Below, piece by piece: positions 415 to 39,442 of a stretch of DNA of 39,442 bases (within the stretch, counting starts at the first letter, position 1; every line of letters begins with the position of its first letter). The position numbers were made by a program, and so were the translations under genes. The notes beneath the pieces were generated by a model. It was not told where the DNA came from and did not search any database. It worked only from the letters and a program-made list of their open reading frames with translations. Source of the stretch: a virus; the IMG/VR virus record IMGVR_UViG_3300035698_007737, positions 1 to 39,442 of that record. One strand, written 5' to 3'.

Positions 415-1818
415 ATGGGGCAGTTATTTAATTATCAAATTGACGGCGCAGCGTTTCTAAGGGATAGAACCCTAGCCTTAATGGCCGATGAAATGGGTCT
501 AGGTAAAACAATTCAGGCCATCCGTGGCCTAGATAGCGTCCATGCTAAAAAAGTATTAATCATATGTCCAAGTATAGCAAGAATAAATTGGCTACGTGAG
601 TTTGAGTGTTGGTCCCAAATAAAAAGACAATATAAAGTGGCTATGACCCTAAAAGACCTGCCAATTGAAGGGGAGTCATGCATCTGCTCTTATGATTATG
701 TATCGGAAAACAGAGAGTATCTCTTAAGCCAAAAATGGGATGTTATTATAGCCGATGAAGCCCATTTTTTAAAAGAACCTGGTAGCAAGAGAACTAAAGC
801 AGTTGTTGGAAAGCGGGGAGTTATTAGAAATTGTGGACGTTTTTGGATGCTAACAGGAACGCCTGCGCCCAACAACGCTAGTGAATTATGGTTGATGTTA
901 TACACTTTTGGCCAAACAAACATGACAAAAGATGCTTTCACCCAGTATTTTTGCCTGACAAGACAGACATCTTATGGGATAAAGGTACTCGGTTCCAAAA
1001 AAGACCGCGTTCCTGAGCTTCAACAACTTTTGAAAAATGTGATGATTAGAAGACTCAAAAAGGACGTTATGAAGGACTTACCTCCAATAATATACAATCA
1101 TGATCTGGTAGAACCTGGGCCTGTTGACTTAGAAATACTCCCCTCATTTTGCCAGTACTTTCTACCCCATGATCGCAGAGAAGAACTGTTCGCAGAGCTA
1201 GATAAACAGCATAAACTTTTAACAGACGTTTACACCAACACTAAACTTGAAAATGCACAAGCTCTAGCCCTTGCTTCTAGCATATCTGACAGCGTGTCCA
1301 CTCTAAGACGATACGTTGGCTTACAAAAAATACAGGCCACTATTAAGATGGTTCATGACAATTTCAGAAATAAAAGATTTGATAAACTAGTGATTTTTGC
1401 CATACACCAAGACGTAATAGAAACTTTAAGAAGGGAACTTAGACAATATAAACCTGTCACGCTTTATGGCAAAACACCTGCAAGTAAAAGAGACAAACAC
1501 ATTGATAAGTTTCAAAATAATCCAGCATGTAAGATATTTATTGGTAACATTTTGGCTGCAGGAACGGCCATCACATTGACCGCAGCGTGTAATGTCTGGA
1601 TTTTAGAACAAGACTGGGTGCCTGGAAATAACGCACAAGCTATCATGCGAGTTCACAGAATCGGTCAAGAGAAAAAAGTGTACGTTAAGTTTATAGGGTT
1701 GGCTGAGTCTTTAGATTCGAGGATAATGCTGATGGTCAAAGGTAAGACTCGCGACCTCACTCGAATTTTTGATGAAAACTTGTTGCAAGACGTGCAACAA
1801 ACGGATATTTTTTCCTAA
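415..1818 (+). CDS. SNF2-family DEAD/DEAH helicase
   Basis: A 467-residue superfamily 2 helicase of the SNF2 type, expected to use ATP to move on DNA during phage replication. A Q-motif-like NYQIDGAAFL opens the protein, followed by Walker A MGLGKT (about residues 27-32), DEAH at 114-117, motif III LTGTP at 146-150 and motif VI RVHRIGQ at about 412-418, which is the classic SNF2 signature. All core motifs are present, so the short length is normal for phage SNF2 proteins rather than a truncation. It is the first gene of the plus-strand replication operon and begins 19 bp from a divergent gene. No obvious ribosome binding site precedes ATG 415. Confidence 0.93.
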   Translation: MGQLFNYQIDGAAFLRDRTLALMADEMGLGKTIQAIRGLDSVHAKKVLIICPSIARINWLREFECWSQIKRQYKVAMTLKDLPIEGESCICSYDYVSENREYLLSQKWDVIIADEAHFLKEPGSKRTKAVVGKRGVIRNCGRFWMLTGTPAPNNASELWLMLYTFGQTNMTKDAFTQYFCLTRQTSYGIKVLGSKKDRVPELQQLLKNVMIRRLKKDVMKDLPPIIYNHDLVEPGPVDLEILPSFCQYFLPHDRREELFAELDKQHKLLTDVYTNTKLENAQALALASSISDSVSTLRRYVGLQKIQATIKMVHDNFRNKRFDKLVIFAIHQDVIETLRRELRQYKPVTLYGKTPASKRDKHIDKFQNNPACKIFIGNILAAGTAITLTAACNVWILEQDWVPGNNAQAIMRVHRIGQEKKVYVKFIGLAESLDSRIMLMVKGKTRDLTRIFDENLLQDVQQTDIFS

Positions 1819-1850
1819 CAATTTCAAAAACAGCATTAGGGGGGTCCAAC

Positions 1851-2315
1851 GTGATCGAGTTAAAGATTGAAGCAAATAATATTGTTGAACTGAAAATCCA
1901 ACTTACAAATATATTGGGTATGACTGAAGGTCACATACCGAAAATTAGTCAAAACACCATTAAAGCAAAAGAAGAAGTCAGCCTAAAAGTGGGTGACGCT
2001 AATTCATTAAAACCTCAAGAATATAAAGAGCCCGAAGCTCAAACACTTGTCAAAAAGAAGGCTACAAAAAAGGTCGCTAAGAAAAAAGCAGCTGTGAAAG
2101 TTGAAGTTGTCGCCTCCCCACAAGAGCCCGAAACTGAAGACACTGTTACTGAAAAGCACACTTATGAGGCTCTACAAAAAGTGAGCACCATGAAAGGACT
2201 AGCTGAAGCAAGAAACGTTTTGGCCAGTTTCGACTGTGACCGTATTTCATCCCTTCCTAAATCAAAATTTGGGGCTTTCGTCACCGAGTGTGACAACATG
2301 TGTGCAGGCGCTTAA
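1851..2315 (+). CDS. Lysine-rich hypothetical protein of the replication operon
   Basis: A 154-residue protein starting at GTG 1851, with a G-rich ribosome binding site (AGGGGGG) seven bases before it. A short N-terminal beta/alpha segment (IELKIEANNIVELKIQL) is followed by a basic linker with KKKATKKVAKKKAA, an acidic patch, and a C-terminal helical part ending in two cysteines. The basic linker could contact nucleic acid, but I do not recognise the family. It sits between the SNF2 helicase and the DUF2800 gene, whose ATG follows its TAA stop directly, so translation is probably coupled. A replication accessory role is inferred from position only. Confidence 0.8.
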   Translation: MIELKIEANNIVELKIQLTNILGMTEGHIPKISQNTIKAKEEVSLKVGDANSLKPQEYKEPEAQTLVKKKATKKVAKKKAAVKVEVVASPQEPETEDTVTEKHTYEALQKVSTMKGLAEARNVLASFDCDRISSLPKSKFGAFVTECDNMCAGA

Positions 2316-3482
2316 ATGTCTACATCACAACCTGCACACTCCAAAATCGGAGCGTCTTCTTACTACCGTTGGAAGGCGTGCCCTGGAAGCGTTAAACTTT
2401 CTGAAGGCATAACTAGCCCAGAGAGTCCTTATGCTAAACAGGGTACTGTGGCCCATGACATAGCGGCCACAATGTTAGAAGACTATTTTTTTAGAAAAGG
2501 TAAACCAGACATACCTGCTAATTATCCTATTGAGGACTTACAGGCAGTTAAAGTTTATATAGAACAAATTAAAAAAGATGCGTTAACCCTTGGGTGTCTG
2601 GCTTCAGAAGGACACGTACTCATCGAACACCGCTTTGATTTATCAGCAGTACACCCAGGGCTTTTTGGAACTTCAGATGCAACGATGTATTCCCCTAATG
2701 AAAAAAAATTAGCGGTGTATGATTATAAGCATGGCGCAGGTATTCCTGTTGGGGTTTTTAATAACGTACAGCTTCAGTATTACGGGCTTGGTGCTCTGCT
2801 TAGTTCAGGGTTTCCATGCTCTACTGTGGAGCTAGTTATTGTGCAGCCAAGGTGTGACCATCCAGATGGTTTGATTAGACGGTGGCAATTTAAAGCTGTA
2901 GACCTTATAGAGTTTGCAGCCCAATTGGCTGAAGACGCCAAGGCTACAGAACAGCCTAACGCTAAGATTCATCCAGGCGATCATTGCAGGTTCTGTCCTG
3001 CAGCACCCACTAAATGTCCTGCCTTAAGAGACAAAGCAAAATCTTTAGCGAAGCTTGAATTTAGTCCTGTATCAAAACATGAGCCGGACAGATTAGTTGA
3101 AGCGCTGAATTTTTTACCAGCACTAGAGGCTTGGATAAAAACAGTGAGAGAGTTTGCTTATGCTGAAGCTAGCCACGGTCGCACCCCAGAGGGTTTCAAA
3201 TTAGTGGCCAAAAGAGCTATGAGAAAGTGGAGCTTACCAGATACAGAACTGGCTGAGAATTTAGAGTGCATGTTACCTGACCAAAGTTTTTATAAAAAAA
3301 GTATTCTATCACCAACTCAAGTCGAGAAGCTTTTGCCAAAAGAATTGAAGAAAACATTAGAAGGACTTGTGGTTAAAACAAGTTCTGGAAATACATTAGT
3401 TCACAGTACCGATAAACGACCTGCGATAAAGCTTGACGCTTCTGCAGACTTTAAACCCATAGAAGGGGGCCTAAATGGATGA
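2316..3482 (+). CDS. DUF2800 protein, Cas4/RecB-like nuclease
   Basis: A 388-residue protein of the DUF2800 family, related to the PD-(D/E)XK Cas4/RecB nucleases. The N-terminus HSKIGASSYYRWKACPGS carries the first family cysteine. The central part has GTSDATMYSPNEKKLAVYDYKHG, the PD-(D/E)XK core with the acidic pair and the lysine, followed by NVQLQYYGLGAL. A cysteine cluster CRFCPAAPTKCPAL (about residues 227-240) fits an Fe-S cluster site. The family usually stands beside phage SNF2 helicase, DUF2815 and PolA genes, as here, and probably acts as an exonuclease in replication or recombination. The start codon abuts the preceding stop, and the next gene overlaps its end by 8 nt. Confidence 0.9.
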   Translation: MSTSQPAHSKIGASSYYRWKACPGSVKLSEGITSPESPYAKQGTVAHDIAATMLEDYFFRKGKPDIPANYPIEDLQAVKVYIEQIKKDALTLGCLASEGHVLIEHRFDLSAVHPGLFGTSDATMYSPNEKKLAVYDYKHGAGIPVGVFNNVQLQYYGLGALLSSGFPCSTVELVIVQPRCDHPDGLIRRWQFKAVDLIEFAAQLAEDAKATEQPNAKIHPGDHCRFCPAAPTKCPALRDKAKSLAKLEFSPVSKHEPDRLVEALNFLPALEAWIKTVREFAYAEASHGRTPEGFKLVAKRAMRKWSLPDTELAENLECMLPDQSFYKKSILSPTQVEKLLPKELKKTLEGLVVKTSSGNTLVHSTDKRPAIKLDASADFKPIEGGLNG

Positions 3483-3711
3483 CGAAAATAATAACGAATT
3501 GGATCAAGATTTACATGATAAAGCAGAAACTGTCATAGTTGAAGCTAAAGAAGATAAGACAGAAGAAATTTTAGACGCTGCTAGTGAAAACCTAGAAGTG
3601 CCAGATCCAGAACCTTTCCAGCCCCCTGAAGATCAAGAAGAAACTAAAAAACCAGGGCTAAAAGAAACTCCCCGCTTTAATCAAGTGGGAACTAAAAATC
3701 ATAAAAACTAA
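3475..3711 (+). CDS. Small acidic hypothetical protein
   Basis: A 78-residue, strongly acidic protein rich in Asp, Glu, Asn and Pro (for example PDPEPFQPPEDQEE), probably disordered. It overlaps the end of the DUF2800 gene by 8 nt with GGGGG just upstream of ATG 3475, and is followed 26 nt later by the DUF2815 gene. Acidic partners of this kind sometimes assist single-strand DNA-binding proteins, but nothing in the sequence proves that. Family not recognised. Confidence 0.75.
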   Translation: MDDENNNELDQDLHDKAETVIVEAKEDKTEEILDAASENLEVPDPEPFQPPEDQEETKKPGLKETPRFNQVGTKNHKN

Positions 3712-3737
3712 ACAACTAAAAAGGAGAAAAGTAAAAA

Positions 3738-4316
3738 ATGAATACACCAAAATTTAGAGTCTCATTTCCTAACGTTTTTGAGGCCAAGAAAAATGACATG
3801 AATGGCAAGGATGAATTTTCAGTAATGGCTTTGTACCCAAAAGGTGCAGACATGGCGTTGTTGGAAGCTGAAGCCGAGAAAGCAGTCATCGCTAAATGGG
3901 GTGCCGATAAATCCAAGTGGCCCGCAAAACTGCGCTCACCTTTTAGGGATCAAGGAGAGAAGGCAAAAAGAAATAACGATGGTGACATGATTTTACCGCC
4001 TGCACACGAAGAAGGCGCTATCTTTATGAATCTTAAGAGCCAACAGAAACCACATGTTGTTGATAATAGCGTTCAAGACATTATTGATAGATCACAATTT
4101 TACGCTGGCTGTTGGGCTGTAGCTTCAGTGAGCGCGTATGCTTACGATGCTAAAGGAAATTGTGGAGTAGCTTTCGGCCTTGGCAACATACAAAAAGTTG
4201 GTGAAGGCGAGCCATTAGGCGGTCGTACAAGACCTGAAGACGATTTTGCACCTGTAGATATGGGTGGCGAAAAATCAACTGCAGAGACAGGGGCTGCGGG
4301 CAGCATTTTTAATTAA
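3738..4316 (+). CDS. DUF2815 protein, probable ssDNA-binding protein
   Basis: A 192-residue protein of the DUF2815 family, which is thought to be a single-stranded DNA-binding (OB-fold) protein of phages. Family features visible are the start NTPKFRVSFPNVFEAK, the central FRDQGEKA and HVVDN segments, and FYAGCWAVASVSAYAYDAKGNCGVAFGLGNIQKVGEGEPLGGR in separate motifs near residues 116-160. The last 30 residues are acidic and glycine-rich and end in a hydrophobic SIFN, like the partner-recruiting tails of SSB proteins. AAAAAGGAG precedes ATG 3738. It lies between the nuclease and polymerase genes. Confidence 0.9.
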   Translation: MNTPKFRVSFPNVFEAKKNDMNGKDEFSVMALYPKGADMALLEAEAEKAVIAKWGADKSKWPAKLRSPFRDQGEKAKRNNDGDMILPPAHEEGAIFMNLKSQQKPHVVDNSVQDIIDRSQFYAGCWAVASVSAYAYDAKGNCGVAFGLGNIQKVGEGEPLGGRTRPEDDFAPVDMGGEKSTAETGAAGSIFN

Positions 4317-4326
4317 AATTTGAATA

Positions 4327-4409
4327 GACCTACACAAGTTGTTTGTATTCCATGAGGTAAAATCTTATGGACCCTAACCCTAACCCTAATGCTACAACTT
4401 GTGTGGGTC
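4327..4409. repeat. 16-bp inverted repeat enclosing three CCCTAA telomere-like units
   Basis: GACCTACACAAGTTGT at 4327-4342 is complementary to ACAACTTGTGTGGGTC at 4394-4409; the single imperfect position becomes a G-U pair in RNA, giving a continuous 16-bp stem with a 51-nt loop. The loop holds three tandem CCCTAA units (about 4372-4389). It fills the gap between the DUF2815 and polymerase genes. It could be an origin, an RNA element controlling polymerase expression, or a terminator-like structure (no T-tract). Confidence 0.75.
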
Positions 4410-4427
4410 ACCTTTAAGTGGGGGTAC

Positions 4428-6500
4428 ATGGGGCAAACAGTACACATTGATTTTGAGACTAGATCTACCGTCAATCTACTGAAGACCGGCGCAGACGTGT
4501 ACGCTCAAGATCCAACAACTTCAATTTTGTGCCTTTGCTACTCCTTTGATGAAGGACCTATACACACTTTTTTGCCTGACACTGAATATTTTGGCCGAGT
4601 AGATGTTAACCTTTCAAAACTTATGACTTGTGTGTTGAACGGTTGCACAGTTGTTGGCCACAATGTTGGGGCCTTTGAAGTTTTAATTTGGAACTATATC
4701 TGTGTGCCTACTTACGGCTGGCCACCTTTAAATATCGAACAATGCGAAGACACTATGGCTCTTGGATATGCTATGGGATTACCTGGGTCATTGGATGCAG
4801 CCAGCGCAGCTGTTGGACTCCAAGCCAAAAAAGATATGAAGGGCCGACAGGTTATGCTTCAACTTTGTAAACCTAGAAGCATAGAAGATGATGGCACGAT
4901 TGTTTGGTGGACCAAAGAAGATGTGCCAGAAAAATATGAAATTTTATATAAATATTGTGAACAAGACGTAGAGGTAGAGCGCGGGCTTCACCACCGGCTT
5001 ATGAAATTAAGTGAGGATGAAGAAACTCTATGGCACCTCGATTGGACTATAAACCGTAGAGGTGTAAATGTTGATAAAAAATCAATAGAAATCTGTATGC
5101 AAATTGTAGCATCTGAGAAAATACGACTTGATTTAAAGATGCGTGAACACACTTTAGGTGAGGTGTCAACTTGCAATGCTACAGGCCAGTTGACAGATTA
5201 TTTAAGGTGGCGGGGTGTCACCGTTCCCAGTGTTGCCAAGGCTGATGTTTTGGACATGCTTGAAACCGAGTTACCTGACGATTGCAGGCAAGCTCTGCTA
5301 TTAAGACAGGAAGCTGGCAAGACTTCCACGGCCAAACTAAAATCTATGGTTTTGGGGAGTTGTTCAGATGGCAGAATCAAAGGACTATTTCAGTACCACG
5401 GCGCTACCACTGGTAGGTGGGCTGGCAGAAGGGTTCAACTACACAACTTGCCCCGTCCAACTTTAAATCAAGATAGAATCGAAGATGCGTTTGCTATTAT
5501 AAATTCAGGAAAGCCTTTGGCTGAAATTACAGAACTACTAAGCATGTTCTACGGGTCCCCAATGAGTGTGGTTAGTAGCTGTATTAGAGGCTTTTTACAA
5601 GCCAAACCTGACCACGAGTTTATAGGTTGTGATTTCTCAGCTATTGAGGCCAGAGTCCTAGCTTGGTTGGCCGGTCAGGAAGATGTGTTAGAGATTTTTA
5701 GAGGTGATGGCAAAATTTATGAATACCAAGCTGGACGAATATACGGGGTCAGTCCTTCTGAAATAAAAAAAGACGACCCACGCAGACAAATAGGAAAGGT
5801 GGCCATCCTAGCACTTGGATACCAGGGCGGGGTCGGGGCCTTTCAATCAATGGCTAAAAACTATTTTGTCAAAGTACCTGATGACACCGCAGAAGATATT
5901 AAACTGGCTTGGCGGGCCTCAAACTCGGACATAGTAGATTATTGGTATCGACTAGAAGACGCCGCCGTACTAGCTGTGAGGTACCCAGGTGAAGGCTTCG
6001 CTGCAGGGGCTAAAGGTAGAGAAGTTAATTTTAAAAAAAATGGATCTTTTTTGTGGTGCAAACTGCCATCTGGCAGAGTTCTCTGTTACCCGTACCCCAA
6101 ATTAAGGCCTGTTAAACTGATTAAAGACCTTGAGACTAGACGCGTTAGAAGATTTGACCCATTAGTTGATACAGGTCGAGCTGACTATTTTGAAAAAACA
6201 GCGTTAAGATATAAGACTGTTGCTCTGGGCAAGTGGCGCGAAGTGGCTACCTATGGGGGCAAACTCTGTGAAAATATAACTCAAGCTGTGGCCAGATGTG
6301 CTCTGTCTGAATCAATGCCCAGGCTTGAACAAAAAGGGTACCCAATAGTGATGCATGTTCATGATGAATGTGTTGTAGAAATTCCAAAAGGTTTTGGCTC
6401 TGTGGTTGAAGTAGAAAAAATTATGTCTGAGATACCATGTTGGGCTGTTGGGTTGCCTATTGATGCCGAAGGCTGGCATGGGGAACGGTTCAGAAAATGA
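4428..6500 (+). CDS. DNA polymerase I family (PolA-type) with 3'-5' exonuclease
   Basis: A 690-residue family A polymerase that copies the phage genome. An N-terminal DnaQ-like proofreading domain opens with HIDFETRS (catalytic Asp and Glu at about residues 8 and 10). The polymerase part shows GRWAGRRVQLHNLPRP, motif A GCDFSAIEARVLAWLAG, motif B RRQIGKVAILALGYQGG and motif C HVHDE (about 643-647), all with the catalytic acidic residues. An upstream ATG at 4389 is possible, but ATG 4428 directly precedes the exonuclease motif and has AAGTGGGGG before it; the longer form would begin inside the hairpin region. The stop overlaps the next start (ATGA). Confidence 0.95.
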   Translation: MGQTVHIDFETRSTVNLLKTGADVYAQDPTTSILCLCYSFDEGPIHTFLPDTEYFGRVDVNLSKLMTCVLNGCTVVGHNVGAFEVLIWNYICVPTYGWPPLNIEQCEDTMALGYAMGLPGSLDAASAAVGLQAKKDMKGRQVMLQLCKPRSIEDDGTIVWWTKEDVPEKYEILYKYCEQDVEVERGLHHRLMKLSEDEETLWHLDWTINRRGVNVDKKSIEICMQIVASEKIRLDLKMREHTLGEVSTCNATGQLTDYLRWRGVTVPSVAKADVLDMLETELPDDCRQALLLRQEAGKTSTAKLKSMVLGSCSDGRIKGLFQYHGATTGRWAGRRVQLHNLPRPTLNQDRIEDAFAIINSGKPLAEITELLSMFYGSPMSVVSSCIRGFLQAKPDHEFIGCDFSAIEARVLAWLAGQEDVLEIFRGDGKIYEYQAGRIYGVSPSEIKKDDPRRQIGKVAILALGYQGGVGAFQSMAKNYFVKVPDDTAEDIKLAWRASNSDIVDYWYRLEDAAVLAVRYPGEGFAAGAKGREVNFKKNGSFLWCKLPSGRVLCYPYPKLRPVKLIKDLETRRVRRFDPLVDTGRADYFEKTALRYKTVALGKWREVATYGGKLCENITQAVARCALSESMPRLEQKGYPIVMHVHDECVVEIPKGFGSVVEVEKIMSEIPCWAVGLPIDAEGWHGERFRK

Positions 6501-8695
6501 GTTTTTTAGATTCAGCAATAAAATTAGCAGACATGGGGTTTCATGTATTTCCATTACAGGTTAACAGTAAACTTCCAGTGATAAAAGACTATCCGAATCT
6601 CGCCACTAAAGATCATAAACAGATTAAGAAGTGGTGGACTGATCCAGTTATGGGCATTGAAAAGCCTTACAACATCGGCATATCAACGTCACAGTATAAC
6701 TGCAATCAATCTCTAGTGGTTGTGGACGTTGACAATAAGGGTGAAAAAAAAGGAAGTGAAGAAGTTTTAAAACTAGAACTTGAAGGTTTTGAGTTTCCTA
6801 ACACCTTTTCTCAAAGCACACCTACAGGTGGCAGCCACTACATTTATAAAGCCCCAGAGGCAGTAAAGCAGGGCGTGTCAGTTCTAGGTAAAGGTTTAGA
6901 TATTCGGTCCCGTGGCGGTTACGTTGTTGGGTGGGGTTCAGAGATTGATGGTAAACCTTATAAGGCGTTTCAAGGGTGTTTTGATATAAGTGACTGCCCC
7001 CCTTGGATTGTAAACGCCTGCAATGTTGTCAGACACAAAGACGCGATTGAAGTAGACGTATCAACTATAGATAAAGAGCGTGCAGTTATGCGTGCAGGCC
7101 ACTACCTAGAGAAAGAAGCACCACTTGCTTTAGAGGGTGATGGTGGGGACAGCACCACCTTTAAAGTGGCCACAAAGTTAAAAGATTTCGGCGTTGATAA
7201 TAGAACTGCTGTAGAACTTATGGCCGACCTTTGGAATGATAGGTGTCAACCCCCCTGGGACCATGACGAATTATGCACAAAAGTTGATAATGCGTTTAAG
7301 TATGGGACTCTGACAGTTGGACATGGTGCCCCTGAATCACAGTTTGAAGTTGTACCTCAAACAGGTGATGAAGAAGACAGTTTTTTAGAAAAAATAAATA
7401 AAGAGTTTGCTATCATATTTGGCGATAACCAACACTCCATACTTCAAGAAACTGTAGATGAAAAGGGTAGACCCCGCAGAGTATTTATGAGTGAGACTGC
7501 TTTTAAAAGATTAATGTCACCTAATTTAATTCAACAGGGTAAGGGACGCGCTAAAACTTTTGCCGAAGTCTGGCTAGACTGGGAAGGTAGACGAACTTTT
7601 CAAGGGCTTTGTTTTAGACCTGAATGTGAACCTAGAAACAATTATTATAATCTGTGGCGCGGGTTTATTTGTAAGCCAAAAGCGTACAACAAAGCCACCG
7701 CGCAGGCCAAACTTGGATTTGATTTGTTTAAAGAGCACGCACTTAAAAATGTGTGTGATAACGACAAAGAATTATTTAACTGGCTTATGGGGTACTTTGC
7801 CCACATGATGCAGAAACCTTTTGAAAGGCCCCTGACAACACTAGTGTTTAGAGGGGCTAAGGGAGTAGGTAAAAATGCACTCATTGACAGAATTGGTAAT
7901 CTGCTTGGTAGCGGTCACTATCTTGTGGCCCACGATGGTAGGTATCTCACTAGTAATTTTAACGGTCATCTGGATTCAGCAATATGTCTTGTTCTAGATG
8001 AAGCTTTTTGGAGTGGCGACAAATCCGCAGAAGGTAAATTAAAAGGACTGACCACCGCGCCTGAAATCCTTATAGAAAGAAAAGGTAAAGAGCCTTACTT
8101 GGTCGATAACCTTGTGCGACTTGTAGTTGTTGGTAACGAAGATTGGTTAGTGCCAGCCAGTAGCGATGAACGCCGGTATGCAGTGCTAGATGTGGGTGAT
8201 GGTAGAAAACAAGACGGGGCTTTCTTTGAGAAAATGAGAGTCCTTATTGACAGTAACGGTGGTAACGAAGTTCTCCTAGATTATTTTCAAAAATTTGATT
8301 TAAAGACTGTTGATGTGAACAAAGCCCCCCAAACTAAGGGACTTTTAGAGCAGAAGATATCTTCTCTTGATATGGTTGAAGAGTTTTGGCTTCAATGTTT
8401 AACAGACGGTCAACTAGTTGGCTGTGAATTTAATGAAGATTGGCCCGAAGCTGTCAGCAGAAAACGTTTTAGAGATTTGTATGTGGCCTTCACTAAGCAC
8501 AAAAATTCAAGGTCTAGAGTTATGGACGCTAGAAGTTTTGGACGCAAACTAACTCAGATGTGTCCACTCCTTAAAAAAGAAGTGCGTTTGAAAACTAAAG
8601 ACAGTATAAATGCTAGAGCTTATGGTTTTCCAGAACTGAAACGCTGCAGGCTTTATATGTCAAACTATCTTGGCCAACCTATTGAATGGGAATGA
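6497..8695 (+). CDS. Bifunctional prim-pol primase and SF3-type (VirE/DUF5906-like) helicase
   Basis: A 732-residue replication protein. The N-terminal 170 residues are a primase-polymerase domain: GFHVFPLQVNSKLPVIK, then NIGIST, the catalytic VVVDVDNKG, and a GGSHYIYKAP histidine motif. A PriCT-like helical domain follows (about 195-275, CQPPWDHDELCTKVDNAF). The C-terminal helicase has Walker A FRGAKGVGKNAL (about 448-460), Walker B ICLVLDEAFW and the sensor VVVGNEDWLVPASSDERR. It likely primes and unwinds DNA for the adjacent PolA. It overlaps the polymerase gene by 4 nt and is the last gene of the plus-strand replication operon. Confidence 0.93.
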   Translation: MSFLDSAIKLADMGFHVFPLQVNSKLPVIKDYPNLATKDHKQIKKWWTDPVMGIEKPYNIGISTSQYNCNQSLVVVDVDNKGEKKGSEEVLKLELEGFEFPNTFSQSTPTGGSHYIYKAPEAVKQGVSVLGKGLDIRSRGGYVVGWGSEIDGKPYKAFQGCFDISDCPPWIVNACNVVRHKDAIEVDVSTIDKERAVMRAGHYLEKEAPLALEGDGGDSTTFKVATKLKDFGVDNRTAVELMADLWNDRCQPPWDHDELCTKVDNAFKYGTLTVGHGAPESQFEVVPQTGDEEDSFLEKINKEFAIIFGDNQHSILQETVDEKGRPRRVFMSETAFKRLMSPNLIQQGKGRAKTFAEVWLDWEGRRTFQGLCFRPECEPRNNYYNLWRGFICKPKAYNKATAQAKLGFDLFKEHALKNVCDNDKELFNWLMGYFAHMMQKPFERPLTTLVFRGAKGVGKNALIDRIGNLLGSGHYLVAHDGRYLTSNFNGHLDSAICLVLDEAFWSGDKSAEGKLKGLTTAPEILIERKGKEPYLVDNLVRLVVVGNEDWLVPASSDERRYAVLDVGDGRKQDGAFFEKMRVLIDSNGGNEVLLDYFQKFDLKTVDVNKAPQTKGLLEQKISSLDMVEEFWLQCLTDGQLVGCEFNEDWPEAVSRKRFRDLYVAFTKHKNSRSRVMDARSFGRKLTQMCPLLKKEVRLKTKDSINARAYGFPELKRCRLYMSNYLGQPIEWE

Positions 8696-36162: not shown

Positions 36163-36544
36163 ACTAATACTAATGCTACCTATTCTATTATTACTACCAG
36201 CATGTGGTGGAAGTGGAGGTGGGGACTCATCCCCAACACCCATCACACGTTCATGCTCTAATCTAGATGAACGAGGCACCTGGTATAATTCATCTTCAAC
36301 AACTGACACTCTAGTTGTATCTGATAACTGTACTTTGACAGGTTCTTACTGTGACCACACCATGACTTTCACCCTTCCAGATGAATCAACCTTTGAGACT
36401 ATAGTGACTATTCACACGGCTAACCTTAATGCTGGATGTATGCAACCCGCAGTCTATGACTGTGAAGTAGGCATATTAACTGATGGCAGATTGGGCATTG
36501 ATTGTGGAACTACAAACCAATTCATTTACCAAAGGACTCAATAA
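36155..36544 (+). CDS. Small secreted lipoprotein
   Basis: A 129-residue protein with signal peptide MNRLILMLPILLLLPAC: a short basic start, leucine-rich core and lipobox LLPA-Cys 17. The mature chain starts CGGSGGGDSSPTP, a flexible linker, and then has a beta-rich domain with six further cysteines (SCSNLD, NCTLTGSYCD, AGCM, YDCEV, DCGTT), probably disulfide-bonded in the periplasm. Phage lipoproteins can block superinfection; that is possible here but not shown. AAAGGAG precedes ATG 36155; the stop overlaps the next start as TAATG. Confidence 0.85.
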   Translation: MNRLILMLPILLLLPACGGSGGGDSSPTPITRSCSNLDERGTWYNSSSTTDTLVVSDNCTLTGSYCDHTMTFTLPDESTFETIVTIHTANLNAGCMQPAVYDCEVGILTDGRLGIDCGTTNQFIYQRTQ

Positions 36545-36738
36545 TGACTTTTGGCAGACTGTGCAACATATGTAAAGAGACCATGACAGCAAAGAATTCG
36601 TATTCAATAGGCAGGCAGTCAATGCCTGACCGACCCAATAAGCCTGGGTTTGTGATACTTTTAATCAACTGTAAGAAATGTGGAGGTACTTGTGTTATCA
36701 AAAAGACAAACAAGACGACTATTTCTTGCGCCGATTAA
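36544..36738 (+). CDS. Small zinc-ribbon protein
   Basis: A 64-residue protein from ATG 36544, which overlaps the lipoprotein stop (TAATG). Two C-x-x-C pairs (LCNICKE and CKKCGGTC) form a likely zinc ribbon. The last 20 nt overlap a convergent minus-strand gene. A longer version from GTG 36502 is unlikely because it would lie inside the lipoprotein gene. Function unknown. Confidence 0.75.
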   Translation: MTFGRLCNICKETMTAKNSYSIGRQSMPDRPNKPGFVILLINCKKCGGTCVIKKTNKTTISCAD

Positions 36739-36898
36739 GCTTTTGAGACTCTTTAAGAGTTTTAACAGCATTAGAGGCATTAGCAAAACCACCACCTGTC
36801 AACATTACGCGACTCAAACTGCCAGCTTCTTCTTTCAAACGGCTAGCCGCTCTGCTAAAAAAGCCCGCTTCTTTCTTTCTTCTCTTTTTAGCTGGCAT
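36719..36898 (-). CDS. Small basic protein on the opposite strand
   Basis: A 59-residue protein on the minus strand within a plus-strand operon. AAAAGGAGACATTT precedes ATG 36898, a strong ribosome binding site. The protein starts MPAKKRRKKEAGFFSRAASR, has RLKEEAGSLSRVMLTGGG and ends QKLNRRKK, a very basic composition that suggests nucleic-acid binding or a virion-associated protein. It overlaps the zinc-ribbon gene end by 20 nt and points away from the next plus-strand gene. Confidence 0.65.
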   Translation of the reverse strand: MPAKKRRKKEAGFFSRAASRLKEEAGSLSRVMLTGGGFANASNAVKTLKESQKLNRRKK

Positions 36899-36922
36899 AA
36901 ATGTCTCCTTTTAGGTGTTAGT

Positions 36923-37114
36923 TTGTTCTGTTATGTAGGCATAGAGTACGCACCCGATGCCAATTCGGCAATCAATTATGTGAAGTGTCCAGATGGGTAC
37001 GCCATAAAGCTGCCAACAGGTCGCTATATTAAATGTGAAGATTACGACAAATATCATCAAGACATAGAGGCAGGCCGCCAAGTGTCCAACTATAATATGG
37101 AGGTTATCCAATGA
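36923..37114 (+). CDS. Small protein with TTG start
   Basis: A 63-residue protein read from TTG 36923 (FCYVGIEYAPDANSAINYVK...), ending EAGRQVSNYNMEVIQ. No ATG or GTG exists in frame at the right place; AGGTG lies five bases before the TTG. The frame is open further upstream to 36680, but there it is antisense to the basic-protein gene and has an unnatural composition. Motifs: two cysteines (VKCPDGYAIKLPTGRYIKCED). It is coupled by ATGA to the next gene. Unrecognised family. Confidence 0.55.
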   Translation: MFCYVGIEYAPDANSAINYVKCPDGYAIKLPTGRYIKCEDYDKYHQDIEAGRQVSNYNMEVIQ

Positions 37115-37290
37115 CCGTAGAAATCAAGATCAAAAGCGTATATGGACGTGAGCTGATATACCCAATTAATGATACAGCCAAGATCTTTGCGGAACTCATG
37201 GACCGCAAAACCTTTACCAAGTCCCAACTATTGATAATCAAAAAGCTAGGGGCTGAAATCAAAGTATCTGAGCCCGACCCCTTTAGTTAA
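37111..37290 (+). CDS. Small conserved-type phage protein (59 residues)
   Basis: A 59-residue protein (MTVEIKIKSVYGRELIYPIN..., ending EPDPFS). GGAGG precedes ATG 37111, which overlaps the preceding stop (ATGA). The pattern I-K-x-V-Y-G-x-x-x-I-Y-P ... A-x-x-F-A ... L-x-x-I-K-x-L-G occurs in small phage and bacterial proteins I have seen as conserved hypotheticals. It is the last gene of the small plus-strand operon. Confidence 0.78.
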   Translation: MTVEIKIKSVYGRELIYPINDTAKIFAELMDRKTFTKSQLLIIKKLGAEIKVSEPDPFS

Positions 37291-37335
37291 CCAGAAACAT
37301 TGACCTTTTTGGCCAACCCCACACCCATTTCAAGG

Positions 37336-37365
37336 CTTTCACTTACATTACTTTCACTTATATTA
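37336..37365 (+). repeat. Two tandem 15-bp repeats (CTTTCACTTAYATTA)
   Basis: CTTTCACTTACATTA at 37336-37350 is followed without a gap by CTTTCACTTATATTA at 37351-37365. Other members of this family lie at 34338-34352 (minus), 34606-34620 and, less perfectly, 34313-34327 and 35503-35517, all in non-coding DNA. Confidence 0.75.
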
Positions 37366-37369
37366 ACCA

Positions 37370-37391
37370 ATACCAGTTAGCTAACTGGTAT
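37370..37391. promoter_or_regulatory. Perfect 22-bp palindrome (operator-like) with two ACCAGTTA half sites
   Basis: ATACCAGTTAG (37370-37380) is followed directly by its reverse complement CTAACTGGTAT (37381-37391). It contains one ACCAGTTA and one TAACTGGT, whose starts are 10 bp apart. A dimeric helix-turn-helix protein is the natural reader; the Cro-like protein encoded at 37895 is the nearest candidate. Confidence 0.75.
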
Positions 37392-37400
37392 GTTGCGTTT
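37391..37400 (+). repeat. TGTTGCGTTT 10-mer, copy C
   Basis: The third exact copy, directly attached to the 22-bp palindrome. In copy B as here, a CTTTCACTTATATTA 15-mer lies upstream in the same direction, with 3 nt between in copy B and 25 nt (including the palindrome) in copy C. Confidence 0.6.
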
Positions 37401-37406
37401 AAGTGG

Positions 37407-37435
37407 TTGCGCTAAGTGTCTAATTTTTCTACTAT
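37407..37435 (+). promoter_or_regulatory. Possible sigma70 promoter
   Basis: TTGCGC (37407-37412), then 17 bp, then TACTAT (37430-37435) with TATAAA overlapping downstream. It starts 15 bp after the palindrome, so a protein bound there could control it. It would drive the regulator/resolvase operon with a long leader. The match is moderate. Confidence 0.4.
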
Positions 37436-37557
37436 AAACCACTATACCACTCTTACCTATTAATAATAATAATAGTATATAGAAATATATGGGTAAGTAG
37501 TCTGGCACATACATGCTCCATATATTTTTATATGGCTGAACATTAAAAAACACTGGT

Positions 37558-37631
37558 TAACTGGTAGTAACTGGTATCCTTAGGGATTACGGGCACTTAG
37601 GCCAACCAGTTACCACCAGTTCTACCAGTTA
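37558..37631. promoter_or_regulatory. Phased operator or iteron cluster (ACCAGTTA / TAACTGGT)
   Basis: TAACTGGT occurs at 37558-37565 and 37568-37575 (10 bp apart), and ACCAGTTA at 37605-37612, ACCAGTT at 37615-37621 and ACCAGTTA at 37624-37631 (10 and 9 bp apart). The two groups face each other across 29 bp. The roughly one-turn spacing means that all copies in a group lie on one face of the helix, as in repressor arrays or replication iterons. Confidence 0.7.
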
Positions 37632-37894
37632 CTAAGTGGTTTCCTCAAATTGCCAAGTCATATTAGTATCTTAGCAAACAGCCCTACTGGTACCCGCCCT
37701 CTATATAGGCGCACAGGCTTTGGAGTCCATATAGTTCGCGGTGTCCCCATGTCAGCGGTGACTTTAATAGCCCGCCACATCGTTTTTAAGCTTGATCGGT
37801 AATAGCTGTGGCCTTAGGGTGTCAATATCTTATCCAACTGACTCTCCAAATAGAATCCGCGCAATTACTGTGCCTCTAGGAGTTGGCTAATATT

Positions 37895-38218
37895 ATGACA
37901 AACACCCACAATCCAAAATTTAAGTATTATAAAGGTGTAGGCTCAAAGTCTGACCTACAAAAAGAATATGAGAAGCAGTCCCAGGCTGAGAGAGTGATAG
38001 CCAAGTTCGGTGGAGCGCGTAAGTTATACAGGTTACTTAAAGAGATAGACCCAGAGTGCTGTTGGAACCCCAGCTCTATTTACCGTTGGACATATCCCAG
38101 AGAAAAGGGTGGAACAGGCGGGGTCATACCCTCTAGAGCCATGAAAATAATAGTAAAGGCCGCACGACTTCACGGTGTATTAGTAGATGGTGATGATTTC
38201 TTTCCAGGTAGGAGATGA
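37895..38218 (+). CDS. Cro-like helix-turn-helix regulator
   Basis: A 107-residue protein from ATG 37895 (a TTG at 37883 lies too close to AGGAG to be used). The core RVIAKFGGARKLYRLLKEID, followed by NPSSIYRWTYPREKGGTGG and IPSRAMKIIVKAARLHGV, is a lambda-Cro/YdaS-type helix-turn-helix family known from phages; S-S-I-Y-R-W is the recognition helix. It is likely the regulator that binds the nearby palindromic sites. Its stop overlaps an ATG of the next gene. No CI-like partner is present in the window. Confidence 0.8.
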   Translation: MTNTHNPKFKYYKGVGSKSDLQKEYEKQSQAERVIAKFGGARKLYRLLKEIDPECCWNPSSIYRWTYPREKGGTGGVIPSRAMKIIVKAARLHGVLVDGDDFFPGRR

Positions 38219-38220
38219 TT

Positions 38221-38406
38221 ATGACAGACACCGAGAATTGTGGAAACTGCGATGGTGAAGGTTGGGTGTGTGAGAATCATCCAGATATGCCTTGGACTTC
38301 TGAAGGATGCGAGTGTGGAGCAGGTATGCCTTGTAATGTGTGCCGTCCACATATGACAGACATTGAGCCTAACAGGATGCCCGAACGTAAACGAGGCTTT
38401 GACTAG
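38221..38406 (+). CDS. Small cysteine-rich zinc-binding protein
   Basis: A 61-residue protein with eight cysteines arranged C-G-N-C-D-G-E-G-W-V-C, then GCECGAGMPCNVCRP: a DnaJ-like zinc-finger pattern known from small phage and proteobacterial proteins. ATG 38221 has AGGAG six bases upstream; ATG 38215 would be too close to that site. Its TAG shares a base with the next start (TAGTG). Role unknown; possibly a chaperone-like or nucleic-acid-binding cofactor. Confidence 0.8.
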   Translation: MTDTENCGNCDGEGWVCENHPDMPWTSEGCECGAGMPCNVCRPHMTDIEPNRMPERKRGFD

Positions 38407-38972
38407 TGGGGTCCAAAAAGAAAGCCTGGATCAACAGGCCACTTATAATAGGACTGGACCCTGGACTGACTGGGGCCGTGTCTGTAATTGATATGGACCG
38501 CGGGCGTATTGTTGCAGTTCACGACATGCCTACCTTTAAAAAAGCCACAAAGGCTAGGAAGCAAGGCTATTTCCTACACATTGACCCACACGCGCTTTCA
38601 ATGCTGGTAGATCAATATGCACGTCATGTCTGTATAGCGGTTATTGAGGAACCTGGAGCGATGCCAAAACAAGGTCTGTCGTCTACATTTAGATTTGGAC
38701 ATACGTGTGGGATGGCTCACGGCGTGTTATCTGCCAATTATCTGACCACAATCCCCATTAAACCTGCGGTCTGGAAGCCTGCGCTTGGATTAAGTGGCCA
38801 AAAAACCAGCTCTTTAGATAAGGTTAAGTCCATTTTTCCACGAGATACTGAGCATTTTAAGCTAAAAAAGCACCATGACCGCGCAGAAGCCGCGCTTTTA
38901 GCTGTGTTTGGTATGAAATTTTTGAAGAAATATATAGATTTAGAGAGAAATAGAGATGATATCCGAAAATGA
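38406..38972 (+). CDS. RuvC-like Holliday junction resolvase
   Basis: A 188-residue RNase H-fold nuclease starting at GTG 38406. Catalytic acids fit RuvC: Asp 18 in IIGLDPGLTGAVSV, Glu 81/82 in IAVIEEPGAMP, and Asp 158/Glu 161 in KKHHDRAEAALLA. The segment TFRFGHTCGMAHGVL and the PAVWKPALGLSGQKTSSLDK part are the usual RuvC substrate-binding region. It should cut branched DNA during replication and before packaging. It overlaps genes on both sides (1 and 17 nt). Confidence 0.92.
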   Translation: MGSKKKAWINRPLIIGLDPGLTGAVSVIDMDRGRIVAVHDMPTFKKATKARKQGYFLHIDPHALSMLVDQYARHVCIAVIEEPGAMPKQGLSSTFRFGHTCGMAHGVLSANYLTTIPIKPAVWKPALGLSGQKTSSLDKVKSIFPRDTEHFKLKKHHDRAEAALLAVFGMKFLKKYIDLERNRDDIRK

Positions 38973-39216
38973 CAAAATATTAAAGAACATACTCGAAAAC
39001 GAGGAGATAGAATACTGTCCGTACTGTGAAGCGCCAAGAGCGCAAGCACTAATACTAGGTGCGCGTGAGAATTATAGAGTCATTGAGACATATTTTCAAT
39101 GTGGGACTGTTTGCCACGTAGAACAAATAGTCAATAATGTGTGGGTTGACTGGGATGAAAGGTGTGGGCCATTAGAAGATTTGGACGTTATGGTAGATTT
39201 AAGGCGCTATCATTAA
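38956..39216 (+). CDS. Small cysteine-containing hypothetical protein
   Basis: An 86-residue protein (MISENDKILKNILENEEIEY...). It has a C-P-Y-C pair and C-G-T-V-C, which may bind zinc, and ends DLDVMVDLRRYH. It overlaps the resolvase gene by 17 nt and its stop lies in the loop of the terminator-like hairpin at 39201-39223. Family not recognised. Confidence 0.78.
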   Translation: MISENDKILKNILENEEIEYCPYCEAPRAQALILGARENYRVIETYFQCGTVCHVEQIVNNVWVDWDERCGPLEDLDVMVDLRRYH

Positions 39217-39223
39217 GCGCCTT
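39201..39223. terminator. Bidirectional terminator-like hairpin
   Basis: AAGGCGC (39201-39207) pairs perfectly with GCGCCTT (39217-39223); the 9-nt loop contains the TAA stop of the plus-strand gene. It lies where plus-strand and minus-strand genes converge. The T-tracts are weak on both sides, so efficiency is uncertain. Confidence 0.6.
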
Positions 39224-39268
39224 CTGAGTTCTTTGTCGAGGTAACGGAAGTTAGATCTATGAAACTCA

Positions 39269-39442
39269 TTAAACGGCCTCGACGAATAGTGAAACACTTA
39301 AAGATTGGATTTCTGTAGATCCAAACCCGTCATTGCCGTCCATTGGTGAAAACGGTCCAGGTGATACATCAGTTCGACCGAAGTTTAAGAAAATGTCCCC
39401 TCCTGTGGCCAGTATTGTATAACCTGCGGGTGTCGCTGCGTC
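39269..39442 (-). CDS. Unknown protein, 3' part (enters from right edge)
   Basis: A minus-strand open frame of 57 codons enters at 39442 (DAATPAGYTILATGGDIFLN...) and ends with TAA at 39269-39271. The composition (Gly, Asp, Thr, Ser; FLNFGRTDVSPGPFSPMDG) is that of a beta-rich structural protein and may belong to a phage decoration or fibre-type protein. It could be the C-terminus of the same gene as 1-395, in a circular genome with missing bases, or a different gene. Confidence 0.6.
   Translation of the reverse strand, partial: DAATPAGYTILATGGDIFLNFGRTDVSPGPFSPMDGNDGFGSTEIQSLSVSLFVEAV

Follow-up and report, generated by a model that had tools for sequence, protein, structure and literature searches.

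The origins of PICIs, the phage-inducible chromosomal islands of Staphylococcus and of Gram-negative bacteria, which are satellites, always have an AT-rich region flanked by two sets of iterons, an organization stated to be absent from all other bacterial replicons known (PMC6092414). The NrS-1 polymerase, which combines a PrimPol with an SF3 helicase, relies on the 8-nt template word TTTGGTTA; the two copies of this word in the NrS-1 genome lie on opposite strands and have been suggested to mark its origin. Phage P4, another satellite, has an iteron sequence of its own (ori/crr), and its alpha protein is a primase-helicase with a C-terminal winged-helix origin-binding domain. In the system of PLE (a satellite of ICP1) and the Odn nuclease, the semi-palindromic iterons diversify under attack together with the initiator (PMC8263062). 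This initiator belongs to the RepA_N type and is unrelated to the PrimPol-SF3 proteins.

The window analyzed here is the entire 39,442 bases of one IMG/VR viral contig, in which a non-coding slot between the genes of a 59-aa protein and a Cro-like protein carries an array of short words (Table 1). The slot is most likely the replication origin of the phage, with a layout that is already known; the literature searched describes no origin for this phage group. Our main reading, to which we give a probability of roughly 0.65, is that the array represents the left and right iteron sets of this origin and that the primase-helicase reads it through its C-terminal winged helix. Origin function is inferred, and binding, melting and priming are proposed on the model of P4 alpha and SaPI Rep. 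The replication genes (415–8695) encode an SNF2-type helicase, an exonuclease, an Enc34-type ssDNA-binding protein, a family A polymerase and the PrimPol-SF3 primase-helicase. The record also contains terminase large subunit and head-tail adaptor genes, and lipoprotein-like, membrane and 59-aa proteins are encoded to the left of the slot.

The original prediction described seven words in groups of 2+2+3, placed 9–10 bp apart, and this array is real. The word ACCAGTTA has six exact copies, all within 37372–37631 and none elsewhere in the 39,442-base record, while the seventh member, ACCAGTTC at 37615, agrees with it in 7 of 8 bases; the neighbor spacings are 10, 10, 10 and 9 bp. Shuffles of the whole record contained a mean of 1.94 copies of ACCAGTTA, and none of 100 reached six. 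With up to one mismatch, 9 copies are found in the slot and 38 in the whole record. The best 6-, 7- and 8-mer counts of the 592-bp slot were not matched by any dinucleotide shuffle (p 0.005, maximum statistic). As predicted, the first two words form a perfect 22-bp palindrome, ATACCAGTTAGCTAACTGGTAT, and no other perfect palindrome in the record exceeds 16 bp, the length of the runners-up. The distant groups also face each other as had been claimed, since groups 2 and 3 constitute an inverted repeat with 94% complementarity (37559–37575 and 37605–37621). Two more copies with 7 of 8 bases (TAAGTGGT, at 37400 and 37633) and lone ACTGGT cores at 37552 and 37686 were absent from the original list.

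Table 1. Features of the window, slot words of related phages, and positions of the cumulative GC-skew minima
Feature	Genome or locus	Coordinates	Strand	Details
Exact copies of ACCAGTTA	window	37372, 37382, 37558, 37568, 37605, 37624	+, -, -, -, +, +	exact word count
Non-coding slot	window	37291..37882		592 bp
Left word cluster	window	37370..37391		22-bp perfect palindrome of two facing words, 37372-37379 (+) and 37382-37389 (-)
Degenerate word TAAGTGGT	window	37400..37407	-	7/8 bases
AT-rich core	window	37411..37490	.	candidate DNA-unwinding element; 78% AT over 80 bp
Inverted repeat	window	37477..37533	.	right edge of core; arms 37477-37492 / 37518-37533, 94% complementary
TATATGGCTGAAC	window	37529..37541	+	same place in relative L003; TGGCTGAAC also in L016
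Right word cluster a	window	37552..37575	-	ACTGGT core 37552; exact words 37558-37565 and 37568-37575
Right word cluster b	window	37605..37631	+	words 37605-37612, 37615-37622 (7/8) and 37624-37631
Degenerate word TAAGTGGT	window	37633..37640	-	7/8 bases
59-aa protein gene	window	37111..37290	+	left flank of slot
Cro-like HTH protein gene	window	37895..38218	+	carph-isopro type; downstream of slot
RuvC-like Holliday junction resolvase gene	window	38406..38972	+	syntenic anchor for finding relatives
PrimPol-SF3 primase-helicase gene	window	6497..8695	+	proposed initiator
Primase-helicase C-terminal winged helix	window	8372..8671	+	residues 626-725; proposed word reader
Slot word	L003/G001			ATTCCTAT
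Slot word	L014/G003			ATTCCG
Slot word	L016/G005			CGGAAGT
Slot word	L046/G007			AGTACC (weak)
Slot word	L047/G008			TCAGACA; no 59-aa gene found there
Slot word	G004			CCAAAAAT
Slot array upstream of Cro-like gene	G033			TAGAACA x10
Slot array upstream of Cro-like gene	G031			ATTTTGG x10
Slot array upstream of Cro-like gene	G016			GTCCATA x6
Slot array upstream of Cro-like gene	G058			GATCGGA x8
Cumulative GC-skew minimum	window	37914		right edge of slot, not the strand switch near 35.6 kb
Cumulative GC-skew minimum	G001			171 bp from slot centre
Cumulative GC-skew minimum	G004			about 0.4 kb from slot
Cumulative GC-skew minimum	MW202898			about 1.0 kb from slot
Cumulative GC-skew minimum	G003			1.5 kb from slot

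An AT-rich core, which the original prediction missed, is situated between group 1 and groups 2 and 3; few 120-bp stretches of the record are as rich in AT. The arrangement seen in the window and in its relatives, an AT-rich region between two sets of short iterons, is also that of the PICI/SaPI rep-ori systems. The iteron words differ, and the PICI origin is located immediately 3' of rep, whereas the slot of G001 lies about 10 kb upstream of its primase gene. Furthermore, PICIs are satellites, while the record carries a terminase, a head-tail adaptor and its own polymerase. Just to the right of the AT core, TATATGGCTGAAC / GTGGCTGAACTTGA is kept in three phages with different words (window, 37529–37541; L003, 4903–4915; L016, about 4033–4045) and is preceded by a CCA..TGG stem. 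Directly ahead of the palindrome is a 15-bp direct repeat (CTTTCACTTACATTA / CTTTCACTTATATTA, 37336–37365). The palindrome itself scores as terminator-like, but its T tail is poor, and it was rejected as a terminator; Rfam gave no match in the slot.

Comparison of positions 36500–39442 with the phage collection by DNA similarity gave no match, and neither the Cro-like protein nor the primase, each used as a single-sequence query, detected relatives; phages with the same gene order were identified through RuvC-based searches. In the close relatives, a non-coding slot of about 500–800 bp separates the 59-aa gene from the Cro-like gene, and each slot read in this group combines an AT-rich core with surrounding repeats of a short word, the word being private to the phage. 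L017 showed no slot of this kind. The slot upstream of the Cro-like/RuvC genes in podovirus contigs with a related PrimPol-SF3 gene often contains an AT-rich core and two-sided words as well, with TAACTGGT, ATAGGAAT, CGGAAGT, TCAGACA, TAGAACA and GTAACA as examples of the words. A wider search based on the primase alignment yielded 79 loci, and in many of their contigs, though not in all, the slot ahead of the Cro-like gene again carries an array next to AT-rich DNA (examples in Table 1). Two-sided words around an AT core are present in 13 phages (window, G001, G003, G004, G005, G007, G008, G014, G016, G021, G022, G031 and G033). The best word reached p 0.005 in shuffle tests of the window, G001, G003 (6-mer only), G004, G005 and G008; the tests were weaker for G007 and MW202898, and the word clusters of G007 and W01 are weak. 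Palindromic or facing pairs recur, as exemplified by CTCAGACATGTCTGAG in L047 and TGTTAC-N-GTAACA in G038. When the words were counted across slots, none was abundant outside its own slot and those of close relatives: GTAACA is common to G021, G038, G019, G052 and G031, and TAGAACA to G021 and G033.

Against the main reading, several GC-rich contigs with related primases showed no AT-core array, and a clear array was not found in G034, G041 and G056 or at loci L137, L138, L153, L158, L174 and L178. The isolates phiVC8 and ZP6, which are more distant (primases 28% identical), also have no AT-core word array. The primase relatives of these two phages adjoin PurZ (2-aminoadenine genomes); a gene of the PurZ/adenylosuccinate-synthetase family was sought in the whole record and not found. 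Searches with the palindromic pattern ACCAGTTANNTAACTGGT and the tandem pattern TAACTGGTNNTAACTGGT revealed no second window-like array, the best hit being L260 with four copies in 450 bp. Other repeats were observed in this set. L238 (G052, reverse strand) has 11 copies of CACTTCAC to the left of an AT core, at 780–1019 of the reverse complement, with a period of 20–22 bp and one gap of 42. Dense short repeats (6–15 bp periods) near the Cro-RuvC region of L004 (MW202898.1, about 2000–2480) and L046 (about 2100–2570) are probably repetitive protein genes. In L250 (1031–1048) and L272 (3675–3692), TAACTGGTggTAACTGGT immediately follows the 3' end of a distant, weakly matching primase-helicase gene (E about 1e-14 to 1e-16), within a GTAACG-rich stretch that is perhaps another iteron origin. 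As a true match to the window this tandem was rejected and taken as coincidence, given the GTAACG-rich surroundings and a C-terminus that is not convincingly alignable.

In each of the five near-complete genomes, cumulative GC skew reaches its minimum no further than about 1.5 kb from the slot, a position that fits an origin, with skew and gene orientation being confounded. The original prediction had left a choice between a cooperative repressor array, origin iterons and a partition-type site. Origin iterons are favored because the layout is conserved (13 phages), the GC-skew minimum is near the slot, and the encoded primase-helicase has a C-terminal winged helix that varies among relatives; the accompanying proposal of a Cro-like reader was not supported. 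Centromeres can also be clustered iterons, but we give practically no weight to a partition or centromere-like site here, as the podovirus gene content shows no sign of a plasmid-like lifestyle and no partition gene was found among the annotated genes, which are part of the total.

The Cro-like protein, which matches NF046037 (carph-isopro) with a score below the family cut-off, had been considered for the role of word reader. Its HTH segment (PSSIYRWTYP and similar) is conserved across phages whose words are unrelated. In G004, the array remains associated with the upstream 59-aa gene family, and about 1.1 kb and other genes lie between the array and cro; the array of the window ends about 260 bp ahead of cro. 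Since changing words go with a conserved recognition segment, and since array and gene are parted in G004, the Cro-like protein is, as far as the sequences indicate, probably not the reader. A word conserved alongside the conserved Cro HTH, as would mark a Cro operator array, was not found. Absence of the repeats from relatives that keep the regulator had been proposed as a refutation, and the word of the window is indeed absent there; because other words occupy the same slot, this result weighs against the link to Cro and not against a function of the array. Additionally, a second array of CGCAACA or TGCAACA directly precedes cro (up to about 270 bp) in G031, G032, G037 and G040 (L223, L208, L190 and L226) and is a candidate Cro operator in these phages. 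CGCAACA was rejected as a universal Cro operator, being absent directly before cro in the clade of the window.

These observations bear on two alternatives. The first is a cooperative repressor or transcription-control array for the early operon, as might be expected of phased palindromic sites in an intergenic slot near a Cro-like gene. We regard it as highly improbable: relatives repeat the arrangement of words on both sides of an AT-rich core, a sigma-70-like promoter was not found in the slot by a scan limited to the consensus, and the arguments against the Cro-like reader (conserved HTH, separation in G004, CGCAACA) apply here too. The second alternative accepts the origin and assigns its reading to the Cro-like protein, the 59-aa protein or a host protein. 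The 59-aa family does flank the slot in six phages (window, G001, G003, G004, G005 and G007), the Cro-like gene follows the slot, and Cro identity also tracks word sharing (AUC 0.969). However, besides the conserved Cro recognition segment, the distance of about 1.1 kb in G004 and the separate CGCAACA array, G014 and G052 have no common word at a Cro identity of 0.59, the 59-aa protein matched no DNA-binding family, and phage-private words are not expected from a host protein. We therefore consider this alternative unlikely, and the primase-helicase a better candidate for the reader than the Cro-like protein.

The C-terminus of the primase-helicase probably reads the words. Its last ~100 residues have the lowest identity of the protein among close relatives (0.14–0.33, compared to 0.5–0.88 in most of the rest), and the trend repeats in a larger set of relatives. 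AlphaFold2 modeled this region as a confident winged helix (pLDDT about 90), in which variation is greater in the recognition helix and the wing than in the first and last helices. Structures matching the isolated domain include RFX, the P4 origin-binding domain and ORC-type winged helices, and only the fold class is supported since all Z scores are below 7. The P4 domain (1ka8) is the third match, and a weak one (Z 5.7, 2.8 Å over 70 residues); a PDB sequence search with the domain returned nothing credible. Like P4 alpha, the protein is a primase-helicase, with a winged helix predicted at its C-terminus; P4 differs in its iteron sequence and in being a satellite. The model of the whole protein best matches the C-terminal region of NrS-1 polymerase (Z 26.7) and also matches the SaPI5 primase-helicase Rep (7ola, Z 18.7), likewise of the SF3 type.

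Word sharing across 91 phage pairs was predicted with an AUC of 0.997 by C-terminal identity and of 0.969 by both the primase core and Cro, in a comparison that includes only 7 word-sharing pairs, which are related, with phylogenetically entangled predictors and hand-picked words. Among pairs with a core identity of at least 0.60, those with a C-terminal identity of at least 0.48 share words, and those at 0.42 or below do not. It is suggestive that C-terminal identity tracks word sharing best, if slightly.

The resemblance to NrS-1 polymerase, which has the same PrimPol and SF3 helicase domains and the closest solved helicase region, raises another explanation, namely that the words are single-stranded template sites at which the PrimPol starts synthesis. 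NrS-1 polymerase depends on an 8-nt template word that is a proposed origin mark, and the words of the window are of the same length. We judge this explanation quite unlikely for several reasons. Phased multi-copy arrays and palindromes are better suited to duplex binding by dimers; NrS-1 has two single-stranded template-word copies, in contrast to the duplex-like phased array observed here. The NrS-1 word is absent from the slot, with two chance-level copies in the record (20375 and 26352), and conservation is higher in the PrimPol domain than at the C-terminus. The phage of this record also differs from NrS-1 in having a family A polymerase.

In the favored reading, with the array as origin iterons and the primase-helicase as initiator, copies of the protein would bind the 8-bp words as double-stranded DNA via the C-terminal winged helix. 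The shared helix face and the facing pairs of words would let the proteins form pairs and rings to either side of the AT-rich core. The SF3 helicase domains would then melt the core, and the PrimPol domain would prime synthesis. More tentatively, a large group of podoviruses may possess a two-sided iteron origin in which word and winged helix change together so fast that the origin codes are nearly phage-private. By analogy with PLE and Odn, such rapid co-change could be driven by rivals or satellites that target the origin; iteron diversification under attack, as in PLE, is one possible cause of the private words.

If this reading is true, a phage group that is common in metagenomes would have a predicted origin and initiator, and an origin layout credited so far to phage-inducible islands alone would extend to podoviruses. 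The matched pairs of word and winged helix would provide a natural set for decoding DNA recognition by primase-helicase initiators, and with these pairs the cause of origin diversification would become open to testing.
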